From positions 350,544 through 414,543 of the forward strand of contig NW_008705579.1 in NCBI RefSeq assembly GCF_000186865.1: a stretch of 64,000 nucleotides of DNA. Direction: 5' to 3'. Both the position numbers and the translations under genes were made by a program. The stretch's first letter is position 1. Every line of letters starts with the position of its first letter. The notes under the pieces are model-generated. The model did not search any database and was not told where the DNA came from. It saw only the letters and a list, made by a program, of their open reading frames with translations. Shown here in pieces: positions 1 through 59,000 of the stretch. This stretch comes from Aureococcus anophagefferens (lineage: Eukaryota; Sar; Pelagophyceae; Pelagomonadales; Pelagomonadaceae).

Positions 1-1947
1 ACGGCTTCGTCGTCGTCGAGGACTGGCTCAGCGAATCGGACGCGGACGCCTTCCGCGGCGACGCCATGAAGCAGCGCGCCGAGGGCCGCTTCGTCGCGTC
101 CAAGGTCGGGAGCCGCCGCGTCGACGCCGCCGGCGACCTCGTGTCGTCGAACGGCCTCGCGGAGGAGACGCGGGCCGGCGAGACGTGCTGGCTCCGGCCG
201 CCGCCGCCGGTCGCCTGCGGCGACGTCGCCGCGCGGCGAAAACTCAACGCGCGCGTGGAAGACTTGCGGGTCGCGCTCGCGGCGAGCTCGGGCGCCGCGC
301 TGCTGCCCTTCGCGACGGAGCTCGGCTACGCGTTCTACGAGACCGGCGGCTTCTACAGGAAGCACGTCGACGTGCCGCGCGGCGTCTACTACGAGCTCGG
401 GCGGTCCGGCGCGACGAACTTCGCGCTCCAGGAGCGGCGCGAGTACAGCGTACTGCTCTATTTGAACCCGCGGGACTGGGACGCGGACCGCGACGGCGGC
501 GCGCTCGTCGTCGACGGGCCCGGCGGCGCGACGGTCGCCGTGTCGCCCCGGGGCGGCACGCTCGTCGTCATGTCGTCGGATCGCACGCCCCACGAGGTCC
601 TCGCCTCGAAGCGGCCGCGGATCGCCGTCGTCGGCTGGTTCCGCACGCGCCGGTCCGAGGAGGCGGCGCGGCTCAAAGAGTCGGAAATCTTCGCCGCCGC
701 CGAGGCCTTCGAGCGCTTCGGCTACGACGCCGCGGCGCTCGCGACGTTCCGGCGCGCGCGGCCCCACCTGACGGAGCCCGTCGAGGTCGCCTACTGCTTC
801 GCGCGGGAGGCGCACGCGCTCTTCGACGGCTTGGACGACCGGGACGGCGCGGCCGCCGCGTGGCGGTCGGCCCAAAACCTGGACCCGGGCAACGCCGTGA
901 GCCTGCTGGGCCTGGCCATGACGACGCGGGACGACGACGAGCGGGCGGCGTCCCTCGCGGCGGCGCGACAGGCCGAGCCGGAGTCCGCGCGCGCGGCGCT
1001 CCTGCGCGCGGCGAGCCTCGACGTCGGCGACGCGGAGCGCGCGGCGCTCGCCGCGGACCTGTCGCGCTGCGCGCCCGCGGCGGCCTGCCTCGCCGAGTCG
1101 CTGGCGTGGCTCGACGCGGAGGGCTTCGACGCCCGGGAAGCCGCCAGTGCTTCTACTTCCCACTGTCTGTCCGTCGCGGCGGCGGCCGCGGCGGCGAACG
1201 CGGCCGGCGCGCCGCGCGCGTGCGCGGAGTTTGGCATCTACCACGGCCGCTCGCTGCGCCTCTTGGACGCGCAGCTCCCGGAGAACTGGGAGCTCCACGG
1301 CTTCGACTCCTTCGTGGGCCTGCCCGAGGCCTGGGCGCACGAGGCCGCGGGGTCCTACTCCGTGCTCGGCGACCGCCTGTGTGCAAATCAAATCTTCAAC
1401 TCGACTTCAATGTGAGCGTATTCGAATGTTTTGACACGAGCACTTCCGCTGTGCTTCGAGAACTCGATGAGAGCAATCGATTCGTCCAAAAATCAGCCGA
1501 ATCGACGTCAACTTGACCGAGATAGAGAGTTCTGAAGTTTGGCCCCGACGTCCCAGCTCACTGGTTGATTTCCACACAGGCGACCGCGGCCTCGACGCGG
1601 ACGCGGCCCTCGACGGCGCGGCGTCGCCCTACCCGGCGCGCGCCACGCTCCACCGGGGCTGGTTCGCCGACACGGCGGGGCCCTTCGCGGCGACGCCCGC
1701 CGCGGACAAACTCGGCCTCGTGCACCTCGACTGCGACCTGTACAGCTCCGCGCGCGACGTGCTCGCCGCGCTGGGCCCGAAGCTCGCGCCGGGCTGCGTC
1801 GTCGTCTTCGACGATTTTCTGGTTCACGCGACGTGGCGGGAGGACGAGAAGCGCGCCTGGGACGAGGCCGTCGCCGCGTTCGGCCTCCGGGCGCGCGTCG
1901 TCGCCGCGTCGCTCCTGACGAAGCAGGTCGTCTTCGAACTATTATAG
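1..1947 (+). CDS. 2OG-Fe(II) dioxygenase / TPR-like / TylF-type methyltransferase fusion (5' partial)
   Basis: The frame is already open at base 3, so the true start lies upstream. The N-terminal part is a prolyl-4-hydroxylase-like 2-oxoglutarate dioxygenase: the HxD iron ligands are HVD (bases 363-371) and the distal His is in TPHEVL (base 591), with basic residues after it. A helical TPR-like stretch follows. The C-terminal third resembles TylF/macrocin O-methyltransferases: the SAM motif is AEFGIYHGRSL and the later block is LVHLDCDLYSSA, then FDDFL. The exons are 1-1368 and 1580-1947, joined in phase 1 across a family-2 introner element; splicing gives SVLGDRGLDAD. Without splicing the frame stops at 1415. 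The order hydroxylase-TPR-methyltransferase in one chain is unusual, and the substrate is unknown. It ends 3 bp from the stop of the opposite-strand neighbour. Confidence 0.8.
1377..1579 (+). mobile_element. Introner element, family 2, copy a (intron 1369-1579)
   Basis: This 203-bp insertion lies inside the dioxygenase/methyltransferase gene. The terminal inverted repeats are CTGTGTGCAAATCAA on the left and the complement of CTGTGTGGAAATCAA on the right. The target duplication GCGACCGC is at 1369-1376 and 1580-1587. The inferred intron is the left duplication plus the element, with a GC donor (G|GCGACC) and acceptor CACACAG. It is AT-richer than the surrounding exon. Strand is given for the orientation that reads CTTCAAYGTGAG. 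Confidence 0.92.
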
Positions 1948-1950
1948 GTG

Positions 1951-4482
1951 TTAGGGGCATACGTAGTCCCCCGCCGTCCGCGGCAGGGCGCGCGGCCGCC
2001 GGGCCGGCGTCGTCGCGAGCGCGCTCTGGGGCCGCGCGCGCCGCGTCCGGCGGCCCGTCGCGCTCTTGGAGCCGAGTTTGCCCGCGGTCGCGCTCTTGGG
2101 CCGCGGCGCGGCCCTGTCGAGCTGGAGGGGCGTGGTCCACGTCGCGCGGCCGAGCCCCGCGCACTCCGCGCGGACGCGCAGGAGCTCCTCGCCGATGATG
2201 TTCGTCAGGAGCTCCTCGTCGCTGAGCCGCATCGTCTTGGGCGTGTAGGTCGGGATCGCGCCGGGCCGGAACTTGGACAGCGACGGCTGCGGCCTCGGGA
2301 CGTCGAAGAGCCGCTTCGGCGTCTTCGCGCGCGGCGGCGGCGCGGCGTCGGCGCCGTCGGCGACCTCGGGGACGGGCGCCTCGGCCGGCGGGTCCGCCTC
2401 GCGCGGCGACGGCGGCGCCGCGCGGCGCGGCGCCGCCGCGGGCGCCGCGGGCCGCGCGGCGACGGCGGCCCGCAGCCGCTCCAGCTCGCGCTCGGCGGCG
2501 CTCCGCGCGGCGCCGTGGGCCTCGGCGTCGCGGAGCGCCGCGTCGAGGCGCCGCAGCAGCCGCTCGTGGTCGCGCGCCGCGGCCGCGGTCTCGCCGTCCG
2601 CGGCGTCGCGGTCCGCCCGGAGCGCGTCGCGCTCGTCGCGGAGCGCGTCGCGCTCGGCGACGACGACGCGGTACTGCACCTCGACGCCGTCGCGCATCGT
2701 CGCGTCGTCGGAGAGCGCCTCCGTGCGGTGCCGCGACGCCTGGACCGCGCGCAGCGCCTCGTCGCGCGCGCGCCGCGTCTCGCCGTGGAGCCGCCGCTCG
2801 TCGTGGAGCCGCTCCTGGAGCGAGATCTTCTCCTCGGCGGAGCGCGCCGTCGCATTTTGCAATTTTGCGCGCGTCGCGTCGTGGTCAACGCGCTCGCGCG
2901 CGAGCGCCTCCGCGGGGTCCTCGTCGGCGTCGAACGCGTCGGGCGCCGCGCCCTTCGACGGCGACGCCGCGGGCGACGCGAGCGCGCCGTCGAGGCGCGA
3001 CCGCGTCTTCTCGTGGGCGCCGCGCTCCGCGTGGAGGTCCTCCTCGGCCTTGGCGCGCGAAAAGTCGCTCGCCGCGAGCTTCTCGCGGAGCTCCGCGAGC
3101 CCCGCGTCGTCGCCGCCGCCGCCGCCGGCGGCGTCCGCGACGCGCCTCCGGAGCCTCGCCACCTCCGCGTCCGCGTCGCGCCGCGCGCCCTCGGCGACCT
3201 TGAGCGCGGCGCGCGCCGTCGACTCGTCCGCGGCGGCCGACCGCCGCAGGTCGTCGAGGGCGCCCTTGGTCCGCTCGTGCGCGGCCCGCTCCTTCGCCGC
3301 GGCCTCCTTCTCGGCGACCAGGGCGCTCTTGAGGTACGCGGCCTCGCCCGCGCCGTCGCCGCTCGCCGCCGCGGCCTTCTGTAAGACGTCGAGCGCCGCG
3401 TCGCGCTCGACGAGCAGGGCGTCGCGCTCGGCGAGCTGGGCGTCCTTCTCGCCGAGCGCGTCTTTGGCCGCGTCGCGGTCCGCGAACGCGCCGTCGCGTT
3501 CCCGGAGCGCCGCGCGGAGCGCCGCGTCGCGCTCCCGGAGCGCCCGGGCCGTCGCCCGGTCGCGGGTCGCGTAGTGGTGCCTCGCGAAGGCCCAGAAGCC
3601 GCGGCCGCGCGCGGCCCGGTCCCGCCGCGCGGCCGCGGCCGCGAGCGCGCGCGCGACGACGCATAGTTCGCCGCGCGGCGTTCCCGGAGCGTCCGCGGGC
3701 GGCGCGGCGCCGCTCCAGTCGCGCTGGCGGAAGACCGTCGTCTTCGGCGCCTCGACGTCCTCGCCGTTGGCGATGGCCTTGGCGTAGGCGAAGTTGGGCG
3801 TCCCGCGGTCGCCCCGGAGGAACGAGCCCCGGTCGACGCCCGGCGGCGCGAGGCCCTGCGCGACGATGGACTGGCGCCGCCGCTGGCCGAGCTGCGTGAT
3901 GATGCCCGGCGCGGCGCCGTCGGCGGCGGAGACGGCCGGCAGCTCGTCGGCGTCCGCCTTCTTCCGCCAGCGGAACTGCTCCTCCGTGGCCTCCGTGGGA
4001 ACCATCTGCCCGTTCTTCCAGACGAACGGCGTCTTCGGCGCGGGGTCCGGCGCGGGCGTCGCCGACGACGGCCGCCGGAATTTGTAGGGCGTCGCGGCCG
4101 GTTCGGGCTCGGGCTCGGGCTCGGGCGTCGCCGACGACGGCCGCCGGCTCCAGCGGAACTTCTCCGGCCGCTCGTCGCCGCCGTCCGCGAACTCGCGCGT
4201 CGACGGCCGCCGGCTCCAGCGGAACTTCTCCGGCTGCTGCGGCGCCGACGCGGCGGGCAGCGCCGACGACGGCCGCGGCGGCAGCGCCGCCTTGCCCCCG
4301 CCCTCGCTCTCGCCCTCGGACTCGCCGTCGTCGCCGTCGCCGCGGCGGAGGCGGAAGTTGGCGCTCTGCGGCCGCGTCCGCGCCATGCTCTGCCGCTTGC
4401 GCGCCGCCAGCTGGTTGAAGATGGACCGGTCGCTGCTGGCCGCCGTGTCCACCGACTCCTCCTGGCGGATGTGGGCCAGCAT
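1951..4482 (-). CDS. Coiled-coil protein with RPQSA / KFRWSRRPSS repeats
   Basis: The function is not recognised. From the ATG at 4482 (an upstream non-ATG extension is possible) the protein is 843 residues. The N-terminal 250 residues are disordered and carry a recurring KFRW-type motif (EKFRWSRRPSS at least twice, then YKFRRPSSAT and QFRWRKK). The middle 450 residues are a long Ala/Glu/Arg-rich coiled coil built on ERDAL and DRDA heptads. The C-terminal tail is basic, with RPQSALATTP. RPQSA-like motifs also occur near the N-terminus and in the zinc-finger protein at 30092-33304. A cytoskeletal or flagellar-type role is only a guess. The gene is a single exon, tail-to-tail with the gene to its left. 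Confidence 0.75.
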   Translation of the reverse strand: MLAHIRQEESVDTAASSDRSIFNQLAARKRQSMARTRPQSANFRLRRGDGDDGESEGESEGGGKAALPPRPSSALPAASAPQQPEKFRWSRRPSTREFADGGDERPEKFRWSRRPSSATPEPEPEPEPAATPYKFRRPSSATPAPDPAPKTPFVWKNGQMVPTEATEEQFRWRKKADADELPAVSAADGAAPGIITQLGQRRRQSIVAQGLAPPGVDRGSFLRGDRGTPNFAYAKAIANGEDVEAPKTTVFRQRDWSGAAPPADAPGTPRGELCVVARALAAAAARRDRAARGRGFWAFARHHYATRDRATARALRERDAALRAALRERDGAFADRDAAKDALGEKDAQLAERDALLVERDAALDVLQKAAAASGDGAGEAAYLKSALVAEKEAAAKERAAHERTKGALDDLRRSAAADESTARAALKVAEGARRDADAEVARLRRRVADAAGGGGGDDAGLAELREKLAASDFSRAKAEEDLHAERGAHEKTRSRLDGALASPAASPSKGAAPDAFDADEDPAEALARERVDHDATRAKLQNATARSAEEKISLQERLHDERRLHGETRRARDEALRAVQASRHRTEALSDDATMRDGVEVQYRVVVAERDALRDERDALRADRDAADGETAAAARDHERLLRRLDAALRDAEAHGAARSAAERELERLRAAVAARPAAPAAAPRRAAPPSPREADPPAEAPVPEVADGADAAPPPRAKTPKRLFDVPRPQPSLSKFRPGAIPTYTPKTMRLSDEELLTNIIGEELLRVRAECAGLGRATWTTPLQLDRAAPRPKSATAGKLGSKSATGRRTRRARPQSALATTPARRPRALPRTAGDYVCP

Positions 4483-4597
4483 CGTCGCGACGCCGGCCGG
4501 TGCCAACGCGCTCGACCGGTCGACCGGGCTGCCCTCGCCCCTTGGAACGAGTTTGCACCGTGAACCGCTTCGTTAGCCTGGCCCTTTACGCACTTCT

Positions 4598-5377
4598 TTA
4601 CGCCGCCGCGGCCGTCGCGCGGTCCAGCGCGCCGAGGACCTCGTCGACGATGGCCTCGAGGCCGTCGCCCCGCTTGACGGAGGCGAAGACCGTCGGCCCG
4701 TCGCCGCGCATCTTCCTCGCGTCGCGGTCCATGACGCCGAGGTCCGCGCCGACGGCCTCCGCGAGGTCCGTCTTGTTGATGACGAGGACGTCGGACTGGG
4801 TGATGCCCGGCCCGCCCTTGCGGGGCACCTTGTCGCCGCCGGCGACGTCGATGACGTAGAGGCTAAAGTCCGCGAGCTCCGAGCTGAAGTGCGCCGCGAG
4901 GTTGTCGCCGCCGGACTCGCAGAGCAGGAGCTCGACGCCCGCGTGCGTCGCCGTGAGCGCCTCCAGCGCCTCGAGGTTCGCGGACACGTCCTCGCGGATG
5001 GCCGCGTGGGGGCAGCCGCCCGTCTCGACGGCGGCGATGCGGTCCGGTGCGAGCGCGGAGTTCCGCGCGAGGAATTCCGCGTCCTCGCGCGTGAAGATGT
5101 CGTTCGTGACGACGGCGAGCGACCGCTCCTCGCGGAGGCGCCGGCAGAGCGCCAGCGTCAGCGCCGTCTTGCCGGACCCGACGGGGCCGCCGATGCCCAC
5201 GGTGAAGGCGCGCGACGCCCAGTCGCGCGTCGCCCAGAAGGCCGGCAGGCCCGTGTCCCGCGCGCCGAAGGACCCGGGGTGGTCGTAGTGCTCGTGGCTG
5301 TGGGAGTGGGCCGCGCGCGTGCGCGCGGCGGCGATGCGCGTCGCGGCGGCGCGCCGCAGCGCGCGGAGCGCGAGCAT
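4598..5377 (-). CDS. ureG: Urease accessory GTPase UreG
   Basis: UreG is the SIMIBI-class GTPase that delivers nickel to apo-urease in complex with UreD/UreF. The 259-residue protein has a P-loop GPVGSGKT, the block [15 protein letters not shown], the UreG metal/CPH motif [14 protein letters not shown], the ESGGDN block, and the G4 motif NKTDL. The N-terminal [10 protein letters not shown] stretch is the usual nickel-binding His-rich leader. It is preceded by about 24 Arg/Ala-rich residues that could be a weak targeting signal. The ATG at 5377 is chosen because upstream in-frame codons lie in the lower-GC promoter. It is head-to-head with the UreD-UreF gene, 207 bp away, and a few kb from urease itself. 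Confidence 0.95.
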
Positions 5378-7012: not shown

Positions 7013-7217
7013 NNNNNNNNNNNNNNNNNNNNNNNNNNNNNNNNNNNNNNNNNNNNNNNNNNNNNNNNNNNNNNNNNNNNNNNNNNNNNNNNNNNNNNNN
7101 NNNNNNNNNNNNNNNNNNNNNNNNNNNNNNNNNNNNNNNNNNNNNNNNNNNNNNNNNNNNNNNNNNNNNNNNNNNNNNNNNNNNNNNNNNNNNNNNNNNN
7201 NNNNNNNNNNNNNNNNN
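7013..7217. other. Assembly gap (205 N)
   Basis: A run of 205 N. It removes the end of the UreF domain and its stop codon. The 70 bases between the gap and the next ATG (7218-7287) are lower in GC and look like the 5' leader of the next gene. Confidence 1.
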
Positions 7218-7287: not shown

Positions 7288-8286
7288 ATGCGACATCCGA
7301 CCGTCGTCGCGGCGTGTCTCGCCTCCACGGCGACCGCCTACGGCCCCGAAACGCTTTCGAATGAAACGGCCAGCCCGACCTCGGCGCCCGCGCCCGTGTC
7401 CGCGTTCGAGTCGCGAGAGGAGCTCCTCGACGCGATCGAGCATTGGTACGACGACGAGGGCCACGCCGACGGCTGGTGGCGCGGCGAAGACCGCTACGGC
7501 CCCATCGGCGCCTGGGACACGTCGCGCGTCGCGGACATGAGCCGCCTCTTCTGCTACGCGGACTACTGCTGGCCGCACTCGCACGTCGGAGCGATGACGT
7601 TCGACGAGGACATCTCCGGCTGGGACACGTCGCGCGTGACGGACACGTCGTTGATGTTCCGCGGCGCGAACGCCTTCGACCGGGACGTCGGCGCCTGGGA
7701 CACGTCGTCCGTCACGGACATGTCCTACATGTTCCGCGGCGCCGACGCGTTCGACGGCGACGTGGGCTCGTGGGACACGTCCGCGGTCGCGAGCGCGGTG
7801 CAGATGTTCAAGGACACCTACCGCTTCGACCAGGACCTGTCGCAGTGGGACGTCTCGCGCCTCGCCGACATGCGGGACATGTTCGCGCACGCGGCGGCCT
7901 TCGACCAGGACCTGAGCGCGTGGTCCGTGCCGTGCCAGGCGATGTATTTTCACGGCTCCGCGTGCGAGGAGGTGTCATGCGGTTTGTGGTGCGGCGGCGA
8001 CGACGACTACGTCGCGGAGGACGACCCGGACATCACGCTCGTGTCCTTCTTCCTCGCCGCGACCGTGTCCATCCTCGCGAGCTACGCGATCATCTCGTGC
8101 TTCGTCCGGTTGCGGAGCTGCGGCAGCAAGGGGCCGGGCGGCGCGTCCGTCCACCCCATGGACCCCCCGGACATCGACCTCTGGGAGGACCACCCCGCGC
8201 CGGCGCCGCCGCCCGTCTCGTCCGGCGGCGTCGCGTCGCGCTGGGGCGCGCTGCGGCGCGCCGCGGCAATTGGCAACCACGAATGA
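7288..8286 (+). CDS. BspA-like / DUF285 leucine-rich-repeat membrane protein
   Basis: The 332-residue protein has an N-terminal signal peptide (MRHPTVVAACLASTATAYG). It then has five or more tandem 25-residue units of the form WDTSxVxDMSxMFxxAxxFDxD, the hallmark of the DUF285 / BspA-like surface repeat family. A Cys-containing linker follows (HGSACEEVSCGLWC), then one transmembrane segment (TLVSFFLAATVSILASYAIISC) and a Pro-rich cytosolic tail. It is probably a type I surface or endomembrane protein with a protein-binding ectodomain. It sits in the middle of the urease cluster without an obvious link to urea metabolism. Its stop lies 26 bp from the urease stop on the opposite strand. Confidence 0.85.
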   Translation: MRHPTVVAACLASTATAYGPETLSNETASPTSAPAPVSAFESREELLDAIEHWYDDEGHADGWWRGEDRYGPIGAWDTSRVADMSRLFCYADYCWPHSHVGAMTFDEDISGWDTSRVTDTSLMFRGANAFDRDVGAWDTSSVTDMSYMFRGADAFDGDVGSWDTSAVASAVQMFKDTYRFDQDLSQWDVSRLADMRDMFAHAAAFDQDLSAWSVPCQAMYFHGSACEEVSCGLWCGGDDDYVAEDDPDITLVSFFLAATVSILASYAIISCFVRLRSCGSKGPGGASVHPMDPPDIDLWEDHPAPAPPPVSSGGVASRWGALRRAAAIGNHE

Positions 8287-12086: not shown

Positions 12087-13544
12087 CTACAGCTCGCGCC
12101 GCCTCTGTTCCATGGCCGCGAGCTTGGCCGCGAGGCCCGCGTCGGCGTCGAGCGGCGGCGTGGCGGGCTCGCGGGACCGGCGCCGCACGGCGACGTGGTA
12201 CTCCCGCGCGGCCGCGTCCTTCGCGTACCACGCGACGACCGCGCGGACCGCGTCCCGCAGGGGCGTCGGCCGCCAGTCGAGGGCGAGCAGCGCCTTGTGC
12301 ACGGCCACGGGGCCGACGTCGTGCTGGGGCATAGACGCGACGGCGGTTTCGTCGAGGACGGCGGTCGCGTTCGCCACCTTGGCGACGACCTCCGCCATGT
12401 CGGCGACGGTGACGCGCGCGACGTGCGCGACGTGGAAGACTTCGCCGTAGGCGGCTGCTCCGGCCGCGTGCGCGGCGAGCACGGCGTCGACGACGTCCGG
12501 CGCGTAGACCCACGACATTTTGGGCGCGGCGCCGGCGGGCTGGCCCCGCGGCCGCACGCGCTCCGGCGGGACCAGCGTCGCGACGGGCCGCCCCGCGAGA
12601 ATCGGGTCGACGAAGCTCTCGAAGAACCCGCCGAGGTTGTCGTAGACGCCGTAGACGTCCGGCAGGCGGAGCGACGTGTAGGGAAACCTGGGCAGCACAA
12701 GGGTGATTCAACGTCGCTTCAACGTGAGTGTTCCGCGCGCGCGTTCCGACAAAAGCATCCACGCTTCGAGACCGTTCCGAGAGATGATCGCTCGTCCAAA
12801 AGTCAGCCGAACGAGTGGAAAACGACCGAGATAGGAGCCATTGAAGTTGGGAATTTCGCTCTCTTGTGCTGCCCTGAGGGAAACCGCTCCGACTCCCAGG
12901 CCTCGGCCAGGGCCTCGTCGCAGGAGAGCTTCGCGCCGCCGTAGCGCAGCTGGTACGCGCCCTCGGGCGTCCGCGCAGCGACCGCCGCGTGCGCCGCGGC
13001 CTCGTCCGGCGGCGGCCGCGCGCAGCAGTCTTCCGCGAGCGGCAGGCCCCCGTCGAGCGGCAGCGGCGTCGCCTGGTAGACCTAGGACACGCGCGTCTTT
13101 GGGGGTGTGAGACGCGTACGCCGCACGGGTCGAGACCGAGTCCGTCGAGATGTGCACGAAGTGCGCGCCCGTGCCTCGGAGCGCTCGCACGGCGTCGAGC
13201 GTGAACTGCCGTTCGAAGCCGACGAAGTCGACGACGAGATCCCAGGGCCCGCGCTCCGCGACGAGCCGCGCGAAGCGCTCGCGCTGGTTCATGCGGTCGC
13301 ACTTGAGGTGCGCGAGCTTGCCGCTTGCCACGGCCCGGCGCAGCGTCTCCGGCAGGACCGTGTGGCCGCGATTGAGCATGGCCACCTCCGCGCCGTCGAA
13401 CTCCAGCAGCCGCTCGACGAGGTGGCGGCCGACGAACTGCGTGCCGCCGATGACGAGGGCGCGGCCTCGGAAGGCGTCGCAACGTCCGAGCAAGGCGAGA
13501 AGGGAGAGCGCGCGCATCGTCTGAGGGCAGCCCATCGTCAACAT
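12087..13544 (-). CDS. CSP41-like NAD-dependent epimerase, probably plastid-targeted
   Basis: This is an extended-SDR protein related to chloroplast stem-loop RNA-binding protein CSP41. The exons are 13544-13137, 13081-12885 and 12687-12087, giving 401 residues. The nucleotide-binding motif is VIGGTQFVGRHL. Later blocks are DLVVDFVGFE, VHISTDSVYQATPL, QLRYGGAKLSCDEA and ERFPYTSLRLPDVYG. Intron 1 (13082-13136, 55 nt) is GT-AG and restores STDS-VYQ. Intron 2 (12688-12884) is a family-1 introner element with a GT donor from the target duplication and restores SERFPYTS. The leader (from MRALSLLALLGRCDAF) is a signal peptide followed by Phe at the likely cleavage site, as in plastid proteins of algae with secondary plastids. 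An RNA-binding or endonuclease role versus a sugar epimerase role is not settled. Confidence 0.85.
12688..12876 (+). mobile_element. Introner element, family 1, copy a (intron 12688-12884 of the minus-strand gene)
   Basis: This 189-bp element has ends CTGGGCAGCACAAG and the complement of CAGGGCAGCACAAG. The target duplication AGGGAAAC is at 12680-12687 and 12877-12884. On the host (minus) strand the intron starts GTTTCCCT inside the duplication and ends CTGCCCAG at the element end. It is therefore a GT-AG intron made of duplication plus element. The internal orientation is antisense to the host gene. Confidence 0.95.
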
Positions 13545-13729: not shown

Positions 13730-16700
13730 ATGTGGGCGGTGTTGCTGATGGCCGCCGCGGCGGCCGGGCTGCTGGCGACGGAGGGCCGCACGGCGCAGCA
13801 GATCGAGGCCGTCGCGGCCGCGCTCCTCGCCGTCGACGACCTCAACGCCGCCTACGCGTCGGACAACATCACCTTCACGCTCGCGGCGGCCTGGGGCGAC
13901 TACGACGTCGACGTCGTCGAAGCGTCGACGAACGCGACGGCGGGCGGCTTCGTCGTCCTCGCGCGGCCGCCGCCCTGCGACGTCGGGACGGCGTGGAACG
14001 GCACGGCCTGCGAGGCCTGCCCGCCGGGCTTCACGCGCGTCGAGGGCGACGCCTGCGCGCCCTGCGCGCCGGGCTCGTTCTCGGACGACCGCCTGCTCTG
14101 CGAGCCCTGCGACGAGTACTCCTACCAGCCGGCGTTCGCGGCGGCGTCGTGCCTCGCGTGCCCGGCGAACGCGAAGCGCGTGTCCCAGCGGGGCCTCGTC
14201 GTCGGCGACGGCTCCTCCGTGGACCAGTGCCTCTGCGAGGCCGGCTTCTACAGCACGGCGCCGCTGCCGAACGCGACGGCCTTCGACGACGCCTGGGGCG
14301 CGCCGGGCGTCGCGTGCGCGGCCTGCCCCGAGGGCGCCGTCTGCCGCGGCTACGCCTACGCGCCCTACAACGAGAAGAACTACTGGGCGGACCCGGCGAA
14401 CCCCGCGGTCGTGCAGGAGTGCTACAACGACGGCCAGTGCAAGCGCAAGTTCCGGTGCTTCGAGGCCTACGAGGGCCGCGCGTGCACGGAGGTGCGGACG
14501 CACGAGTACTTCCTCCTCGGCGGCGCCCTCGAGCTCAAGTGCCCGTCGACCTTCGGCGCGCGCCTCGCGCTCACGGTCTCGCTCGTGCTCGTCGCCGTCG
14601 CCGTCTGGATCTTTTTCAACAGCCTCGTGCTGGCCGAGTGCGAGCTCTTCGACATCCTGCTGAGCTACGTGCAGACCGTCGCCATCATCTCCTCCTTCCA
14701 CATCTCCTGGCCCAAGCACGCGCGCTACCTCTTCGTGTTTTTCAGCCTGCTCCTCTTCGACGTCGACGCGGTCGCGCCGAACTGCCTCGTGCGGTGGACG
14801 AACCGCCACGCCTACGCGGCCCAGTACGGCCTGTGCCTCGTGGGCACGCTCAAGTGGTACAAGGTCGGCGGCCTCCTCGCCGCGAAGCTCTGGCGCGAGC
14901 CCGAGGCGCGGTCGTTCCGCGGGGTCCGCGACGCGTTCCGCTTCGAGACGGGCGATCTCAGCGACGTCGCCGTCGACGCGCTCGTGACGTCGCTGACGGT
15001 CCTCGACCTGCAGCACTTCATCCTGACCTACAACTTCTTCTCGGCGCGCCCCGGCGTCCCTTTTTTTCTTTCTTCGAGCGCGACGCGCGTCCCCGCGTCG
15101 CAGATCTTCAAGTGCTCCGACGGCGACGTCGACGGCGTCGCGTCGTACGTGCTGAGCATGCCCGACATCCGCTGCGAGTCGCGGCTCCACAAGAAGCTGC
15201 TGGCCGGCAGCGCCCTGCTCTGGATCATCGCGGGCGTCGGCATCCCCCACGCGATCATGGTCAAGATCTTCCGCGAGTACGCGACGCACGCGGGCTGCCA
15301 CAGCCCCGCGGTGCTCGCGCGCTTCGGCTGGTCCTTCGAGCGCTTCCGGAGCCCGCTCCACTTCTGGTACATCGTGCTCAAGTGGCGGTCCATCCTCATC
15401 TGCGCGATCACGACGCTCGACGACGGCGCGGTCCAGCTCTTCTGCGGGTCCGCGGTCATCGCCTGTGTGGATTCCAAATCTTCAACCCGACTTCAATGTG
15501 AGCGTAATCGACGGTTTCGACGCGAGGCTTTCTACCGTGCTTCGAGAACTTCACCAGAGTAATCGATGCGTCCAAAAATCAGCCGAATCGACTTCGATTT
15601 GACCGAGATAGAGAGTTCTGAAGTTTGGTGGGGACCCCCAAACCAGTGGTTGATTTCCACACAGGTCATCGCCGTCGAGCAGACGCTGAGCCTGCTGTTC
15701 CGCCCCTACGAGAAGACGCTGCTCAACGGCGTCGACACGGCGGGCTTCGTGCTCGTCGCGGCCTTTGCGTCGTCGACGATCGTCCTATTCTCCGACGAGG
15801 CGCACCGCTTCAAGCAGACGTGGCTCGTGTCCGTCGTCGCGTTCGTCGTCGCGGCGTTCGGCGCCGTCGCGGTGCACGAGGTCCTCGCGAAGCGCGACCG
15901 CCTCTTCAAGCAGGCCGCGACGCAGGAGACGAAGCGGCGGTTTCGCGTCGACGACCACCGGGGCATCCTCTCGAAGCGGCTGTCGGAGTTGCAGCACCGC
16001 GCGTCGTCCGTCGCGCACGAGCTCGTCGACAGGGCGCTGCACCACCACGGCCGGTCGAGCCCCTCGAGCCGCGACGCGCCGAAGCACGCGGCGGAGGGCG
16101 GGCGGCGCGTCGACCCGGAGCTGCTCCTCGACGCGGTCGCGGAGCTCAGCGACACGCTCTGCGGGAAGCCCTGGCACGCGTTCGTGACGGACCCGGACAC
16201 GTCGGACGCGGTCTGGGACGACTACCGCGACGCGTCCCTGGCCATCCGGCCCTTCGTCTGCGACGCGTCGCCGACGAGCCGCTACTCCGCGGACGCGCGC
16301 GCGTGCTACTGGCGCCTCTTCTGCAAGGCGCGGCCCCGGCGTCCCATTTTCTTCCTCGAGCGCGACCCGCGCCCCCTCCGCAGAACTACCCGGGCGTCAT
16401 CGACTTCGTCGTCGAGGAGCTCACGCACGTGGAACGGACGATCTACTTCGGGTGCATGCTGCGCCTCGAGCGGTTCCTCCAAAAGGACGGGCACACGCGG
16501 CTCCACGATTTGATCGAGGAGGCGGACCGGTCGTCGATCCTCTACTTCCTGCTGTCGGCGTCGAAGGCCGACGCGGACAAGCTCGTCACGGTGCTCCACG
16601 GCATCCTCCGGAGCGCGGACGCGGACGCCGCGGCCCGCGGCGACGCGCTCTGCCGGCCCCAGGGCAGCACAAGAGAGCGAAATTCCCAACTTCAAAGGCT

Positions 16701-17252
16701 CCGATCTCGGCCGTTTTCCACTCGTTTTGGCTGACTTTTGGACGAGCGATCATCTCTCGGAACGGTCTCGAAGCGTGGATGTGTTTTCCGTAACGCGCGC
16801 GCGCGGAACACTCACGTTGAAGCGACGTTGAATCACCCTTGTGCTGCCCAGGCCGGCCCCGGCGCGCGCGGACGGACGTCGCGGGCCGGCGGCCCTCCTA
16901 CGGGCTCCAGGACCTCGCGACGCCCGGCGGCGTCAGCTCGAGCCTCGCGGCGGTCCAGGACCAGGTCAGTGGCCACGCGAACGAGCACCACGCGAAGCAG
17001 CACAAGACGACCGTCGAGGACTGCGAGAAGGTCGAGGTGCGGGCCGTGCTCCTCTCGCACGTCGTGACGAAGAAGGACGCCGACGACGAGGCGCCCGTCG
17101 TCGTCGTCGACGACGAGATGCCCGAGGCCCTGGGCGAGGTGGCGCGCCGCGAGTCGCGGCGGGCCCTCGTGCCCTACCCGGAGTCGCTCGGCGCGTTCTT
17201 CTGCGCGTCCCAAGACGACCCCGTCGTCGGCATCTACGCCTGCGGCGACTGA
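13730..17252 (+). CDS. Secreted-type cysteine-rich, multi-pass membrane protein (ephrin-receptor-like GCC2/GCC3 repeats)
   Basis: The five exons are 13730-15043, 15104-15454, 15665-16327, 16384-16651 and 16852-17252, about 998 residues. A signal peptide (MWAVLLMAAAAAGLLA) leads a luminal region. This carries tandem CxxC-rich repeats (ACPPGFTRVEGDACAPCAPG, CEPCDEYSYQPAFAAASC) of the type annotated as ephrin A/B receptor-like in stramenopiles. Several transmembrane helices follow (LALTVSLVLVAVAVWIF and others), then a long cytosolic tail. Introns 15044-15103 and 16328-16383 are short, with GCGCG donors; for the first, an internal GT at 15056 would also keep the frame. Introns 2 and 4 are introner elements of family 2 and family 1, so one gene hosts both families. 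The ligand and role are unknown. Confidence 0.85.
15463..15664 (+). mobile_element. Introner element, family 2, copy b (intron 15455-15664)
   Basis: This 202-bp element begins CTGTGTGGATTCC and ends with the complement of CTGTGTGGAAATCAA. The target duplication GTCATCGC is at 15455-15462 and 15665-15672. The intron begins GTCATCGC and ends CCACACAG (GT-AG, phase 0). Splicing restores GSAVIAVEQTLSLL. It aligns along its length with the copy at 1377, with the same orientation relative to the host gene. Confidence 0.95.
16660..16851 (-). mobile_element. Introner element, family 1, copy b (intron 16652-16851)
   Basis: This 192-bp element lies in the plus-strand gene with its interior antisense to it. 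The ends are CAGGGCAGCACAAG and CTTGTGCTGCCCAG. The target duplication GCCGGCCC is at 16652-16659 and 16852-16859. The intron is GC-AG (CT|GCCGGC), phase 1, and restores DALCRPRRARTD. Confidence 0.94.
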
Positions 17253-42735: not shown

Positions 42736-45700
42736 ATGGCTCTCAGCACTCTCGACGCCGAGCGTGATTATGCAGCTCGGCTGTTCGGCGTTCACGCCAT
42801 CCGCGTGGCCGCCGCGAGCGCCGACGACGACGACGGCGACGCGCTGCTGCTCCAGTGCGCCTTTCTGGAGGAACCGGACGAGGACGAGGCCTCCAACGCC
42901 TTGCTGGACCACAGCGAGGGCGGGAGCGGCCAGCTCGCGGACGACGCGACGCTGCGCGTCGCGCTCGTCTGCGTCCAGGAGGCGCCCGCCGCCGTCGCCC
43001 GGGCGGGGCTCGAGCGGCTCTACGGCGCGGACCGGCTCCGCGGCGCGGGCCCGCTCCGCGCGGTCGCCGCGCGGCGCCGCGGCGCGCGCGGCCAGAGCGG
43101 CGGCGCGTCGCTGCTGCCGCTCCTGCGCTTCGGCGCCGTCGGCGACGGGAGCGGCGCGCGCGGCTGCAGCGCGCACCCGCAGCTCGCGAGCCTGCGGCGG
43201 ATCCTAAGGGCGAAGAGCGGCGTGCTCCGGAGCTCGGCGCTCGCGGGCCTCTGCGGCGGGCAGGGCAGCAAAAGGGTGATTCAACGTCGCTTCAACGTGA
43301 GTGTTCCGCGCGCGCGCGTTTCGGAGACAGCACCTATGCTTCGAGAGCGCTCCGAGAGATGATCGCTCGTCCAAAAATCAGCCGAAACGAGCGGAAAACG
43401 ACCGAGATAGGAGCCTTTGAAGTTGGGAATTTCGCACCCTTTTGCTGCCCAGGCGGCGGGTCGCGCGGCGCGGTGGACCTGCAGCTGCGCTTCGTCGCCT
43501 ACCAGCTCCTGCGCTGCCTCATGGCGGCCCACGGCGCCGGCGTCGCCTTCGGCGGCCGCGTCGACTCGCGGAGCCTCTTTGTCAGCGACCGGCTCTGGCT
43601 CCGCGCGCTGCCGCGCGTCGCCGCCGTCGCGGGCGAAGCGGCCGGCGACGCGCCCCTCTGCCGGCCGCCCCTGCACCGCAAGCCCGTCGTCGCGCGCTGG
43701 GTCGACGGCTCGCTGTCGAACTTCGAGTACCTCGTATTATTAAACGAGGCCGCGGGCCGCGGCAACTGCCTCAACAACGACCACTTCGTCTTCCCCTGGG
43801 TGTCGGACCTCAAGAGCCGCGACGGGGACGACCACTGGCGCGATTTATCGAAGACGAAATTCCGCCTGAACAAGGGCGACCTCATGCTGGATCGCACCTA
43901 CGGCGCGTCGAGGCACCACGTGCCCGAGCCGGGGCTCTCGGAGCTCGCGCTGTGCATCTATCTCGCGCGGATCACCCCGATCTCGGTGCTGCGCCGCGTC
44001 GTCCGCGCGAACTTCGTCGCGGAGCACTACCCGGCGACGGTGGAGCGCCTGTACGCCTGGACGCCCGACGAGGCCATCCCCGAGTTCTTCTGCGATCCGT
44101 CCGTGTTCAAGAGCCGCCACGGCGACCGGCTCCGGGACCTCGGCGTGCCCGGGTGGTGCGCGTCGCCGGAGGACTTCGTGTCCTACCACCGGGCGCTCCT
44201 CGAGTCCGACGCCGTGTCGTCGAACCTGCACGCCTGGATCGACGTGACCTTCGGCTACGCGCTCGTCGGCGCCGCGGCCGTCGAGCGCAAGAACGCGCCT
44301 TTGAGGGAGCGGCCGCGGAGCCTCTTCGACCGCGTGGACCACCGCGCGCCGGGCGCGGCCGTGCTCTTCGCCGCGCCGCACCCGCGGCGCGCCGTGGCGC
44401 CGCGGGCGGCGTGCGACGCCGCGGCGCGGGCCGCGGACCGGGAGAAGCGCGCGCTCGAGGCGTTCCTGCGGCTCGAGCCCGCGAGCTCGCGCGGCGTCGA
44501 CGCGCCGCGGCCGCCGGCGGACGCGCCCGCGGCGTCGCGCCGCCTGGCCTTCGACGCGTTCGGGGATGCGCACGCCGTCGCGGGCGACGTCGACGCGCCC
44601 CTGCGGCGGCCGCCGAGGAGGCCGGCGGTCCGTCCGTTCGACGGCGCCGTCGCCGCGGACGCCGCGGCCGCGGGCGCGGTGCTCCTGGAGCTCTACCTCG
44701 GCGCGGCGCCGGACGGCGGCGGTGCGGCGCCGGCGCCCTGCGCCGTCGCGCCCCTGCCCGCGCCCGTGCGGCGCGCCGCCGCGGCGCTCGCGGCCGGCCG
44801 CGCGTCGCTCGACCGGATAGCGGCGACGGCGCCGCCGGCCGCGTCCGACGACGACGACGACGCGCGGCGGCGAAAACCGGACTACGAGGACGCGGCGCCG
44901 TGCCTCTTCCCGAGCCACTTCGCCAAAGCCTACGACCTCGTCGCCGCCGTCGAGCGCGCGGCGACGCCGCGCGACGCCGTCGACGCCGTCCTGGGGAGCC
45001 TCGACGCGTTTGGCGACCTGGAACTCGCGGGCGCGCTGCTCTGCCTGCCCCACTACCTCGCGTGCCTCGACGACACCAAGGGCTGGAGCTTCCTCGCGGG
45101 CGACGAGAGCGACGACGACGACGACGAGAAACGCGCGGGGAGCTCCGACGACCTGTGCCTCTTCGTCGACGTCGTCGGGGCCAAGATCGGCCAGGGCGCC
45201 GCGGCGCACGCGCTGGCGCCGCGCGTGGCCGCCTTCGTCGACGCCGTCGTCCAGCTCGAGGGCGAGGCGCCGGCGACGTTCTTACGCTACGGCGACTTAG
45301 TGTTTCGGAGCGTCGTCGACCGCTGCGGCGCGCGCGCGTTCGCCAAGCTCTTCGTGCCCACGCTGTGCGACGTCGCGCGGGGCGCGGGCGACGTCGCCGT
45401 CGCCGCGGCGGGCGCGTTGGGCCGCCTGGCGTCGCGCGACGCCCTGGGGCCGGCGCTCGCGGCGCGGCTCGTGCTTCCCGCGGTCGTCGCGGATCTCGGC
45501 CGCGAGCAGCTCCACGACGACCCCGCACTGGGCGACGCGCCGACGCCGCGCGTCTTTGCCGTCGTGGAGCTCTGCGACGCGTTGGGCGCCGAGGCCGTGG
45601 CGCCGGCGGTGCTGAGCCCGCTATTGGACGGGCGCGGCGCGTTGGCGGTTTTAGAGGGCGCGCTCTCGGATCCGCACAACGGCGCGGCGCGGCGCGCGCT

Positions 45701-52364: not shown

Positions 52365-52374
52365 GGCTGCAGTC

Positions 52375-53667: not shown

Positions 53668-53871
53668 TGCGAAAATGTGCCCAGGTCGTGCAGGAAGCGG
53701 TGAGGCTGCAGTCCTAGACGCGCTGGCACACCTCGACAGCCCCTCACATGCCCGGGCGCGAGAAAAGCGACCCCGCAGCAACGACGACTGCAACATAAGT
53801 CGGCGGCATACGATGGATGCGTGATGGCGCTAACAGCAGCCTGATCATCGTCGCCGATCGCATCACTCGCG

Positions 53872-54936
53872 ATGCCTCGCGCCGCTTCGCCACGCGCGGC
53901 GCTCGTCGCGCTCGCCTTTGGGGCGGCAGCCCGCGCCGAGATGGTCGCCATGAACATCGCCGTCGGCGCCGGGTGGCTCGCCTTCGAGTTCGACACGCTG
54001 GACGGCCGCGAGGCGTTCGAGGCGCGGGCCATCCGCTTCGCGGCGGAGAACGGCCTCAACATGGGCGAGGGCTGCCACGCGCCGAAGACCGACGAGCTCG
54101 GCTACGAGTGCGTCGGCCGGCGCATGGCGCGCAAGATCATCGAGGAGCGGGGCCACGAGCGCGTCGTCGCGCCGGCGATGGCGTCCGTGGCGGGCTACGC
54201 GGAGAAGAAGAGCGACGCGCCGTCGGCCGAGGAGGCCGCGACCTGCCGGCGGGAGGTTTTAAGGCTCGCCGAGTCGGGCGCGTGGCGCGGCGTCGACCTC
54301 GGGCCCTTCGACGACCTCAACGACCGCGTCACGGCGGCGACGGCGTCGGCGGACCAGGTGCGCCTCGGCCACACGGGGCGCACGTCCGCCGCGCGCCGGT
54401 GGTACGTCGCCGCCGCGCGGCTGCCGTGCGTGAAACGGATCTGCGAGGTCGGGTTCAACGAGGGCCACTCGGCGTCGCTCTGGCTGCTCGCGAACCCGGA
54501 GGCGGAGGTCGTCATGTTCGACCTCTACGAGCAGCCGTCGGCGCCCCTCGGCGAGGCGTTCCTGCGGGACGCCTTCGGCGACCGGCTCTACGTCGTCCGG
54601 GGCCCGTCGGAGGTCACGGTGCCGCACTTCGCCTTCTCGCACCCGGCGACGAAGTGCGACCTCCTCGTCGTCGACGGCTCCCACGAGGAGGCCGTCGTGT
54701 CCGCGGACATCGCGAACCTCCGCCACCTCGCGCGGTCCGCGTTCCACCTCCTCCTCCTCGACGACACGGCCGCGTGCCGCGCGGAGTACTGCGCGGGGCC
54801 GAACGCGGCCCTCGCGGACCACGAGCGGCGCGGCACGGTCGTCGCGCCCATCTTCGCCGTCAGCCAGGACCCGTCCTACCTCGACGGCTTCCTCAGCGGC
54901 ATGACGGCGACGGCCTACGCGCGGCCCTGGGCGTAA
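53872..54936 (+). CDS. Secreted methyltransferase-like protein (Methyltransf_24 type)
   Basis: The 354-residue protein has an N-terminal signal peptide (MPRAASPRAALVALAFGAAARA). After a helical segment with several Cys it contains a SAM-type Rossmann domain: RICEVGFNEGHSASLWLL (motif I), VVMFDLYEQPS, then CDLLVVDGSHEEAVVSADI and FHLLLLDDTA. This arrangement fits class I methyltransferases of the family-24 group found in secretory pathways of algae. The acceptor is unknown, and the luminal location makes a glycan target possible. It converges on the ankyrin gene with 19 bp between stops. Confidence 0.82.
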   Translation: MPRAASPRAALVALAFGAAARAEMVAMNIAVGAGWLAFEFDTLDGREAFEARAIRFAAENGLNMGEGCHAPKTDELGYECVGRRMARKIIEERGHERVVAPAMASVAGYAEKKSDAPSAEEAATCRREVLRLAESGAWRGVDLGPFDDLNDRVTAATASADQVRLGHTGRTSAARRWYVAAARLPCVKRICEVGFNEGHSASLWLLANPEAEVVMFDLYEQPSAPLGEAFLRDAFGDRLYVVRGPSEVTVPHFAFSHPATKCDLLVVDGSHEEAVVSADIANLRHLARSAFHLLLLDDTAACRAEYCAGPNAALADHERRGTVVAPIFAVSQDPSYLDGFLSGMTATAYARPWA

Positions 54937-54955
54937 CCGAAAGCCGCGCGCTTTC

Positions 54956-55663
54956 TTAGTCGATGACCTCCACGCTCGGGCAGCCGTACTGGTGGAGCAC
55001 CTCGGCGACGTCGTGGTGGCCCGCGAATCTCGCGTGGTCCGCGGCGTTGCGGCCCGCGACGTCCGCGGCGGCCATGTTCGCGCCCTTGTCGAAGAGCCAC
55101 TCGCAGGCCTCGAGCTTCCCCGCGCGGGCCGCGACGATGAGCGCGGTCTCATCCCGTTGCCCCTTGGCGTCGATGAAGAGGCCGGCGGCAGCGAGCGCCT
55201 CCATCAACTCCACGTCGCCGACGTGCGCCGCCGCGAAGAGCGCCGCGGTCCCGTTGTCTCGCCGCCCGTCGCCGTCGACGCCGTTGACGAAGTCGGCGTA
55301 GCAGTCGAGGCGCCGCGCGCGCGACAGCGGGTCGTCGCCGTGGCCGTGCCTCGGATGGTCCGGCGCGCGCGACGACGGCCGGCCGCGCGACGGGCGCCGC
55401 GGGTGGTCCGGCACGTCGACGACCGCCGGCGCGATTCGCGACCCGCGCGCCTTCTTCTTCGGCTCGTCGGCGCCGTGGCGGAAGTTCGACTTGCGCGCGG
55501 CGATGATCTCCGGCGGCGGCTCCCGGTACGGCCGCGGGCCGCGCTCCCAGGTCATGCAGCAACACAGGATGCGGCAGTAGACGCGCTCGCGGCCCGTCGC
55601 GACGTACTCGTAGTGGTCGTTTCCGTTCGTGCGCGACTGGTGCCGCCGATTGAAGCGGCGCAT
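54956..55663 (-). CDS. Ankyrin-repeat protein
   Basis: The 235-residue single-exon protein has a basic, Cys-containing N-terminus (VYCRILCCCMTWERGPRP), which could be palmitoylated. A disordered Arg/Pro-rich linker follows, then about three ankyrin repeats at 135-230: NGTAALFAAAHVGDVELMEALAAAG, RDETALIVAARAGKLEACEWLFDKGA and AGRNAADHARFAGHHDVAEVLHQYG. No enzymatic motif is present, so it is a protein-interaction module. Confidence 0.83.
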   Translation of the reverse strand: MRRFNRRHQSRTNGNDHYEYVATGRERVYCRILCCCMTWERGPRPYREPPPEIIAARKSNFRHGADEPKKKARGSRIAPAVVDVPDHPRRPSRGRPSSRAPDHPRHGHGDDPLSRARRLDCYADFVNGVDGDGRRDNGTAALFAAAHVGDVELMEALAAAGLFIDAKGQRDETALIVAARAGKLEACEWLFDKGANMAAADVAGRNAADHARFAGHHDVAEVLHQYGCPSVEVID

Positions 55664-56011
55664 GGCGCAGGAAGCGTTTTTACCACGCTGGTATTGCGCG
55701 GCTGCGTGTCACATTTATTAGCGCGCACATAATCGCAACGAGCTACGGCATCAACGATCCCGGATTCCAGGCCGTCGAGCTTTCGGTTGGCCGGGGGTCG
55801 GGAGCGCACCACCACGAGTCCGAAAGCGGCGTAGTGAGGTTATGTGAAAACGCGTGGCGACCCCCGAGAAGCGGGGCGTCGCCCGAGGCCGCGCCAAGAG
55901 GGCGCCCGCGGGGCGCGCGGTGTGGTCCGCGCCCGCGCGGGCGGTGTTCGACGCGGGTCCGCGCGCGCGCCGGTCGCGCGCGGGCGGGTCGACTCGCTCG
56001 CGGCGCGGGGC
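55664..56011. other. Intergenic region between two minus-strand genes
   Basis: About 350 bp between the ankyrin-gene start and the end of the USP gene. The half next to the ankyrin gene is lower in GC and probably holds its promoter. The rest is very GC-rich. No feature could be supported. Confidence 0.5.
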
Positions 56012-59000
56012 CTAGGCCCTGGCCGCGGCTTTTCGTTTGTAGAAGAGGACGTAGGCCTGGCTGGAGACGACCGTGCTCGGGTCCGCGCGCGAGACGAGCG
56101 AGTCGTTATAGTGGCTGCGGCGGGGACGGCGCGCGTCGAGACAAAAAAAAAGAAAAAACGAACGCGGGGAGAACGCACTACCAGACCTGGGTCGCGTCGT
56201 CGATGGCCGTGGCCGTGTAGTGGCCGCCGCCGAGGCCGCCGCTGTGCTCCGAGACCGCGTAGAGGTCGTAGAGGCAGCCGCGCGGGTCGTCCTTGGCGCC
56301 GAGCACCTGGGAGCTCAGGTCCAGGTCCCGCAGGGGGAAGCTCACGAGGTCGTCGAGCTTCTGGCGGTGCACGAAGTAGGTGTTCTGCGCGTACTGGAAG
56401 CGCTTGAGGTGGAGGATGAGCACGTCCGGCACCGACCAGAGGTCCAATTTCTTGAACGCGCGCGAGTGCTGCTTGCACTTGGCGCAGTACCACTGCTCCG
56501 TCTCGCCGAGCTGCTCGCGCTCCGCGAGCTTCCGGAAGCAGTCGAGCACGTCGATGGACGCCGCGCCGCGGCCGCCGTCGTCGTCGCGGCGCCGCGCGGA
56601 CGCGTGGTCGTCGACGGCGTCGCGCTCCGACGCGTCGACGCGGCCCGCCAGATCCTCGTCGGACCACTCCAAAGTCACGGTCTGCACCGTCGACGGCAGC
56701 GCTTCGGCCTCGGCGCCCAGGTCGCTCTCGAAGCGCGTGCCCGACGCCGTGGACGCGCAGCACCGGTACGCGTCGCCGTCGCCCGACGCGACGAACCGCG
56801 CGCAGTGCGCCGCGACCTTGGCCCGCAGGTCCCCGCACGTCGCCTCGTCGTTCACGGCGACGCGCAGCGGCAAGCCGAAGAGCTCGTACTGCTTCGCCGG
56901 GCCCGCGCCCGCCGCGCCCGGCGCGCGGAACGCGGACCCGGAACCTCTAGCCGCCGCGACCTTGCCGAAGAGCACGTCCACCGTGCGGCCCTTGGGCTTG
57001 CCGTTGGCGCCCCGGCGGTCCAGCTCGAAGGCAACCAATTCATCGTTGGGCTTGATGTGCTCCACGGAGAACGCGTCCGCGAACGTCCGGTAGACGCGGT
57101 GGCCCCAGACGTCGCACAGATCCAGATCGCCGCCGCTCCGCGCGTCCGCGCCGTAGGCCAGCGCCACGAGCGCGTCCTTCAGCGCGCCCACGGTCTCGCG
57201 CGCGGGCACGGCGACGACCAGCTTCAGCGGCCGCGTGCCCAGGGGCAGCTTGAGCAGCGTCACGGCGACGCGGCGCGTCTTCGCCGCCGGCAGCGGCAAC
57301 GAGAGGCTCAGGTAGGGGTCGAAGGTGATGGACTCGTGGTTGCAGTTCGGGCAGGTGATGTGGCTCTTGAGCTGGCCGTAGCACGTGTCGACGATGACGC
57401 TCTTGTTGCGCATCTGGAACCGGCTCCACGACTCGCGCGACACCTCGGCGTCGGGCCGGCCGTTCGACTCGAGCGTCTCCGTGTAGGGCTTGCGCTTGAT
57501 GCGGTTCAGGTCCTCGTGGAGGCCGTCTAATACGTAGTTCATGAGCTCCTGGCTGTCCTGCTGCTGGTAGCCGCTGAACTGGGGCGCGTGCGTGCCGATG
57601 GACCGCTTCAGCGCCGTCGGCACGACGACGGCGAACTTGCCGCTCCAGACGTCGCGCACGAAGTCGGCGTAGGCCCGGGCGATCTGGCCGCCGGCGCCCA
57701 GGGGATTGTCCTCGTTGATCTCGTCGAGGAAGGTCGGCCGGTTGTTGCCGTCGTCCTCCAAAAAATAGTTCGTGAGCGGGTGCGTGTGGCTCAGGCACTG
57801 GAGCCTGGGCAGGACAAGGGTGATTCAACGTCGCTTCAACGTGAGTGTTCCGCGCGCGCGCGTTCCGGAAAAAGCATCCACGCTTCGAGACCGTTCCAAG
57901 AGATGATCGCTCGTCCAAAAATCAGCCGAAACGAGTGGAAAACGGCCGAGATATGAGGCTTTGAAGTTGGGAATTTCGCTCTCTTGTCCTGCCCTGACTG
58001 GAGCATCGAGTTCATGAAGCACGTGTTGCCCAGGTTCGACAGCCCGACGGCGCCGCGCGCCGGCGGCGCGCCGCGCACGTGGGACCGCGCGGGCCGCGCG
58101 TCCGCGCGCGAGGACGCGAGGCGATCCGCGCGCGCGTAGGCCGCGCCGCCGGGATCGGCGCCGGACCGGTGGTGCTCCGCGAGCTGGCGGTCCCGGTCGT
58201 GGCGCGCCGCCGCCGACGCGCGGCTCTTCTTGATGTGGGTCCCCATCTTGCAGAGCTGCTCGCTCGACGTCTCGAGCCACCGCGGCGCGACGGCGGCGCC
58301 CGGCGCGACGGTCGACACCTCGACGCGGTCGCCCGAGCAGTCGACGACGCGCGCCTCGTACCACAGGGGCTTCTTGGCGTCCTCGGACCGCACCTCGCAG
58401 GCGTCGCCGACGCGCAGCCGGCGCCAGTCCTCGGTCCGCGCGAAGAGGGGCTGGAGCGACGACTGGTCCTCCTTCTCGACCCACGTGTCCCACCGCGAGC
58501 TCCACCCGCGGAAGTGGACCTTGACCTTGGAGCCGTCGACCTCCACGACCACGGAGTCGAACCAGCGGCCCTCGCTGTCGCGCGCGTCGACGACGTCGCC
58601 GGCCTTGAGCCGCGCGCGCCACCGCTCCCTCCGGACGTCGCGCGGCCAGAGCCGGTTGCCGCCCGGCGCCGACGGGCTCCGGAACTCGACCAAAGCCCCC
58701 CAGCGCGGCGCCTCGCGGCTCCCGAAGACGGCGGGCACGCCGCCGATCATCGCCGACTCGTCGCCCTCGAGCAGCTGCCAGAGCTCCTCGCCCTGCGCGT
58801 CGTCGTCGCCGCCGCGCCCCCAGAAGCGGTCCTCGCGCAGCTCCCGGGGCTCGCCGGCGACGGACTCGCCCGTGAAGTCCTCCTCCGCCGCGGCCCGCAC
58901 CCAGATGCGCCGCTCGTCGCCGAGGCCGCCGCGGCCCGCGCGGAAGAGCCGGTCCCGGCAGCCGCCGACGCGGTCGTAGCGGCTGCAGAGCACGGGCCGC

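Follow-up and report, generated by a model that had tools for sequence, protein, structure and literature searches.

A 64,000-nucleotide stretch of the Aureococcus anophagefferens genome (contig NW_008705579.1, positions 350,544 to 414,543 of the forward strand; hereafter the window) contains six insertions of 189-203 bp which can, with high confidence, be regarded as introner elements, that is, short non-autonomous DNA transposons resembling miniature inverted-repeat transposable elements (MITEs), each making one intron. Introner elements of this species were reportedly described by Huff, Zilberman and Roy in 2016. A first-pass annotation, made from the sequence, had described six insertions with inverted terminal repeats and exact 8-bp target duplications and had assigned them to a class already known in Aureococcus; all six were found at the positions it gave, and their length, their repeats and the co-option of splice sites agree with published accounts. 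The finding is correct and is not new in kind.

In the proposed mechanism, the element would insert by staggered cutting, with duplication of 8 bp of the target, and the spliceosome would take the GY (G followed by a pyrimidine) of the upstream duplication as the 5' splice site and the AG of the element as the 3' splice site, so that the mRNA would be unchanged by the insertion. The donor would be co-opted from the target, the element bringing the acceptor only, and insertions without a properly placed GY would be lost because the gene would be broken.

The six elements (E1 to E6) each carry inverted terminal repeats and are enclosed by exact 8-bp duplications. They belong to two subfamilies that have a common body (core about 75% identical) and differ at their ends, type A (E1 and E3) being bounded by CTGTGTG...CACACAG and type B (E2, E4, E5 and E6) by CAGGGCAG...CTGCCCAG in gene sense. 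Read in that sense, all six terminate in AG, and the upstream duplication opens with GT in two cases and with GC in four, which gives predicted introns of 197-211 bp. On the plus strand, E1 (1377-1579, type A, 203 bp) lies between copies of GCGACCGC at 1369-1376, the upstream or donor side, and 1580-1587; the predicted intron, 1369-1579, has a GC donor and a CACACAG acceptor, and Pfam matches identify its host gene as a 2OG-oxygenase/TylF-methyltransferase. E2 (12688-12876, minus strand, type B, 189 bp) interrupts a gene with a Pfam match to the NAD-dependent epimerase family, between copies of GTTTCCCT (minus-strand reading) at 12877-12884 on the donor side and 12680-12687, with a predicted intron of 12884-12688 and a GT donor. 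E3 (15463-15664, plus strand, type A, 202 bp) is flanked by GTCATCGC at 15455-15462 (donor side) and 15665-15672, with a predicted intron of 15455-15664 and a GT donor, in a gene whose Pfam matches are weak and all below the cut-off (Ephrin_rec_like). E4 (16660-16851, plus strand, type B, 192 bp), probably in the same gene, is flanked by GCCGGCCC at 16652-16659 (donor side) and 16852-16859, its predicted intron being 16652-16851 with a GC donor. E5 (43261-43452, plus strand, type B, 192 bp), whose body lies opposite to those of E2, E4 and E6, is flanked by GCGGCGGG at 43253-43260 (donor side) and 43453-43460; its predicted intron, 43253-43452, also has a GC donor, and a Pfam match to the BEACH domain lies downstream of it on the plus strand. 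E6 (57805-57996, minus strand, type B, 192 bp) is located in a ubiquitin-specific protease gene recognized by its UCH domain match, between copies of GCTCCAGT (minus-strand reading) at 57997-58004 on the donor side and 57797-57804, with a predicted intron of 58004-57805 and a GC donor. No seventh element was detected above threshold when the window was searched using nhmmer with a profile of the six and with filters off, the best other match having E = 0.25.

At each of the six sites, excision from the upstream GY through the AG of the element takes away the element and one of its duplications and re-establishes the coding frame; the third-position GC of the joined frame is 0.92-1.00 upstream and 0.94-0.99 downstream in every case. 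The DNA of the window is 72% GC and several further frames are open as well, so the coding frame was picked by composition and homology instead of length, because GC-rich DNA keeps other frames long too. If the element is retained, the coding-like frame ends within 15-56 codons at E1, E3, E4, E5 and E6 and within 27 at E2. Excision of the element alone, with both duplications kept, was considered and rejected, as by arithmetic it leaves 8 additional nucleotides and puts the downstream sequence out of frame at every site; some of the frames so shifted stay open by chance in GC-rich DNA.

Homology bears on the junctions of four elements. The E1 junction falls within the TylF and Methyltransf_24 matches, that of E2 within the Epimerase match, and that of E6 within the catalytic Cys box of the UCH domain (NLGNTCFMNS^MLQC, the caret marking the junction), which aligns without gaps to human USP4, while the E5 junction (LAGL^CGGS) is gapless in three relatives (P0127, P0128 and P0131). 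The E3 and E4 junctions are supported by frame and composition; no homologue spans both, and neither junction is covered by any homologue shown. These two elements flank an ordinary 56-bp intron at 16328-16383 (read by eye) and appear to lie in one gene, in agreement with the earlier count of five genes. The earlier claim that excision yields an open, family-consistent protein therefore stands for the open frame at all six sites and for family consistency at E1, E2, E5 and E6, the latter not being shown for E3 and E4.

The same element is abundant in the rest of the genome. A 15-base core, carried exactly by all six elements of the window, has 2,702 copies in the 49.05-Mb genome, and a control with the reversed pattern has 0. 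The density that had been taken to make the window special proved unexceptional, since the genome mean of the core predicts 3.5 copies per 64 kb and the six observed are about 1.7 times that mean. For a closer analysis, the window, seven further loci and 40 stretches of one contig (C1), chosen in map order of core matches, were sampled, yielding 80 profile hits; an eighth locus (L001), situated within the window, was omitted. The strand and frame of the flanks were called, blind to the element, with a codon model trained on the six gene segments of the window (4,066 codons); the result for the window's own six is circular, and counts are also given without them.

Some exact 8-bp match accompanied 57 of the 80 hits and was credible in 51. 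Within this exact-duplication subset, 48 of 51 copies have flanks on one strand with a continuous frame (42 of 45 once the window's six are excluded), and the duplication opens with GY in the coding sense in every one of the 48 (31 GC and 17 GT). When no duplication filter is applied, 69 of the 80 hits are near full length, the remaining 11 being fragments outside the strand and frame test, and 64 of the 69 show the same strand and a continuous frame (58 of 63 when the six of the window are set aside); 63 of these 64 are GY-AG (39 GC and 24 GT). The C1 stretches alone give 47 consistent copies out of 50, 46 of them GY-AG. Among the 69 near-full-length copies the duplications are exact in 50, differ by 1-2 mismatches in 14 and by 3-4 in 5. 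Additionally, the 24-base type B end reading AG has 455 matches in the genome, with GY next in 447. The first-pass observation that intergenic DNA holds no element is correct for the window; from the window alone it is weak, because 74-88% of its 180-nt blocks look coding, depending on the threshold, and the placement of 45-51 of 51 elements in coding sequence (p from 0.0002 to 0.009) is a significant and modest excess in a gene-dense window. With position, strand, frame and splice dinucleotides in agreement in 63 of 69 sampled copies, this genome offers a very clean set of introners. To our knowledge, introners are the best-supported large-scale source of new introns.

The donor dinucleotides permit a comparison of use with availability. 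In the coding flanks, GY makes up 20% of dinucleotides and GC accounts for 79% of GY, whereas GC donors constitute 31 of 48 in the exact-duplication copies (p = 0.019 versus 79%) and 59 of the first 100 listed among the 455 type B ends, the other 41 being GT (by eye; p = 5e-6). GT is thus favoured two- to threefold over its availability, GC donors still being the majority, and these frequencies suggest that GC is accepted at roughly one third to one half of the rate of GT. A longer donor consensus was not found in the 48 copies: position 3 is G in 27, and no GTRAGT-like pattern follows further on. In the 17 consistent copies with decayed duplications, the donor is GY in 16 and its first base G is unchanged in all 17. 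Six of the 17 (L006, L031, L003, L012, L019 and L045) have a second donor base unlike that of the exon copy, and in four of these the exon copy has T and the intron copy C; drift from GT may account for some of the GC donors. The ordinary intron at 16328-16383 likewise has a GC donor (AAG^GCGCGG) with a CGCAG acceptor, and of the three ordinary introns seen the other two are GT-AG (all by eye); GC donors are therefore not confined to introners. A 2011 survey reported 39.6% GC-AG introns in A. anophagefferens and termed this an 'enigma' (PMC3033335), for which a simple cause can be offered, namely that donors would be co-opted from GC-rich coding targets, with GC accepted less than GT. A link between GC donors and introners was published in 2013 for Micromonas IE-A1 (PMC3879977); the same link for Aureococcus was not found in the literature searched, Huff et al. 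2016 being outside that search.

The ends of the two subfamilies differ in a manner relevant to orientation. In type A, positions 1-15 of the inverted repeats are complementary in 17-21 of 21 copies, T stands opposite A at position 2 in 19 of 21, with AG ending either strand, and 10 bodies lie forward and 11 reverse relative to the gene. Of the 27 type B copies, 22-27 have complementary bases at position 1 and at positions 3-14, and none has them at position 2; in gene sense, 24 of the 27 carry A as the second base at each end, with AG on one strand only, and 5 bodies lie forward and 22 reverse. The type B arms are otherwise largely complementary despite variation, position 9 being C-G in 15 copies and G-C in 10 (n = 27). 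These ends suggest that type A can splice in both orientations and type B in one: a type A copy (CTG...CAG) could serve as an intron in either body orientation, because its ends give AG on both strands, and a type B copy in one direction. When type B copies are read in body orientation (n = 29), the second bases are A/A in 6 and T/T in 19, and the other 4 have T with an altered base on the right, T/A never occurring. It is conceivable, though unlikely, that the terminal CWG of type B lies outside the inverted repeat and that the two ends change together, through a base copied in a joined-end (circular) intermediate or through a flip of the body. In a tree of the 29 copies, A/A appears in three places with poor support, and a single A/A clade is not rejected (approximately unbiased test, p = 0.116), for which reason two founder lineages remain the simpler reading of A/A versus T/T.

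Two further features of the elements were noted. Two type A copies (L013 and L041) have a different terminal repeat (CTGTGCCG...CGGCACAG), in which both arms are altered together. Bodies lying forward hold a consensus-like donor in gene sense, GTGAGT in E5 (43297-43302) and GTGAGC in E1 and E3. In fold predictions, pairing of the last 25 nucleotides with 10 or more of the first 15 is seen in 18 of 21 type A copies and in all 27 of type B, as against about 5% of shuffled sequences, and the inverted repeats may pair in the pre-mRNA beside both splice sites, perhaps aiding a weak donor. The hairpin was rejected as proof of function, since inverted repeats pair by construction and the folds show a possibility only.

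Evidence for unoccupied sites was obtained at the protein level. P0001, from a 14.5-kb ENA contig, is 98% identical to the E6 protein over 1,028 aa and ungapped across the E6 site, and P0121, from a 5.1-kb ENA contig, is 95% identical to the E1 protein, matching it at 546 of 577 positions with 0 gaps across the E1 site. P0001 terminates at the in-frame stop of the window's own open reading frame (ORF), whereas the relative P0003 reads on past that stop (VWYHYND), and the window has a matching exon beyond a 64-bp GT-AG intron at 56178-56115 (by eye). Since the stop of P0001 lies in an intron spliced out in P0003, P0001 most likely represents an ORF called on genomic DNA without splicing, and the DNA behind it should be without the E6 element. 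The gapless alignments of P0001 and P0121 indicate, as a protein-level comparison, that unoccupied alleles very probably exist at the E6 and E1 sites. That relatives have the protein unaltered at these junctions and at that of E5 is also what suggests splicing of the elements from RNA. E5, on the other hand, is common to strains JL721 and JL722, whose public gene models translate its first bases. These A. anophagefferens proteins, P0125 and P0126, are among the best named matches, at 99.7% identity over 319 aa and 98.1% over 107 aa, respectively; identity over longer alignments of P0002, P0125 and P0126 is lower, at 76-90%, owing to different exons in the gene models.

Several observations weigh against the interpretation of the six insertions as introners with co-opted donors. 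If the element is retained, a frame without coding-like composition remains free of stops over 913 codons at E2 and over 1,228 at E5. Five of the 69 near-full-length copies failed the strand and frame test (L002, L004, L016, L033 and L040), and one of the 64 consistent copies (L023) lacks GY-AG. No autonomous partner or transposase was recovered among four families sought genome-wide, two of which had silent controls: the MULE transposase (PF10551) and the Merlin IS1595-type transposase (PF12762) gave no match in the genome, searched irrespective of introns, with 3 of 14 and 1 of 14 control genomes positive, respectively, and hAT dimerisation (PF05699) and the KDZ (Zisupton) transposase (PF18758) gave no match, the control genomes being likewise silent. 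The public models P0125 (JL721_2268) and P0126 (JL722_6344) also belong here, as they translate the start of E5 (RAGQQKGDSTSLQR) and exit at the internal GTGAGT (by eye). They favour a reading in which the element holds both splice sites, the donor being the GTGAGT at base 37 of the forward type B body, so that the element start and the duplication would stay in the mRNA, and a family that adds 12 bp has been reported from an Aureococcus sp. (PMC9860276). This reading is nevertheless very improbable: both models follow an upstream frame without coding-like composition, an internal donor would insert residues absent from relatives at E1, E5 and E6, GTGAGT in gene sense is absent from the reversed bodies of E2, E4 and E6 (by eye), and the GY start of 48 of 48 duplications and 447 of 455 ends would be left unexplained. 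JL721_2268 and JL722_6344 probably mistranslate the E5 junction (43253-43452), and because two public models appear wrong there, annotation should admit GC donors in this genome.

The GY rule itself could reflect a cutting preference of the transposase instead of a filter imposed by splicing, and the far, non-donor end of the duplication is indeed mildly enriched for the mirror-image RC (R, purine), in 19 of 48 copies versus a background of 0.217 (p = 0.005), so that target preference may account for part of the GY signal. As the whole explanation it is unlikely, because a symmetrical target preference would affect both ends alike, whereas the donor end is GY in 48 of 48, and the donor end is fixed by the coding strand, itself called from the flanks. 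That the copies are ordinary MITEs disrupting genes, leaving pseudogenes or retained elements, accords with the early ends that retention would impose on the coding frame at the six sites; it can be given scarcely any credence, given that coding-like sequence surrounds 64 of 69 copies and reads through in one frame once the element and 8 bp are removed, and that donors remain GY, with the first G intact, despite the decay of their duplications. Reverse splicing has been proposed for fungal introner-like elements, and the copies here are introns with intact splice sites, as spread by reverse splicing of intron RNA would predict; DNA transposition, and not reverse splicing, is what would be expected to leave exact 8-bp duplications, inverted terminal repeats and bodies lying either way (in type A, 10 forward and 11 reverse), which makes spread through RNA extremely improbable. 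A set of copies lying wholly in RNA sense and lacking duplications, which would have favoured it, was not encountered. Insertion as a DNA transposon, with the donor taken from the target, thus remains the interpretation adopted here.

Elsewhere in the window, a run of 205 Ns occupies 7013-7217, and a tandem array of three 75-bp repeats, which have 60-76% identity to the first and the common block GGGACACGTC, is found at 7587-7811.

Compared with known systems, the elements most resemble the introners described from the same species. Those introners have a characteristic length of about 210 bp (PMC9481584, a paper on Pelagomonas), close to the 197-211 bp of the introns predicted here, possess terminal inverted repeats and direct repeats (PMC7789003), co-opt splice sites and occur in both orientations (attributed to Huff et al. 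in PMC10228655), and insert between nucleosomes (PMC9860276); they differ in being credited with canonical splice motifs (PMC7789003), whereas most donors predicted here are GC. Homology between introners of different species is described as absent unless the species share a genus, some TARA cases being mentioned (PMC9860276). Family 4 of an Aureococcus sp., known from a TARA metagenome-assembled genome (Gozashti et al. 2022, PMC9860276), shares the genus and the 8-bp duplication, but it has the two splice sites within the element and lengthens the transcript by 12 bp, whereas the splice predicted here adds nothing. The introners of Symbiodinium microadriaticum, reported in the same study, are alike in their terminal inverted repeats, in the duplication, in the 3' site carried by the element and in the 5' site co-opted from the duplication, and are unlike in a duplication of 4 bp and in belonging to another lineage. 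The IE-A introners of Micromonas pusilla CCMP1545 (Verhelst et al. 2013, PMC3879977) are similar in having many GC donors (53% of IE-A1) and thousands of copies (3,566, or 9,904 in an older count), and are distinguished by their lineage and by a set donor consensus, which is absent here beyond GY.

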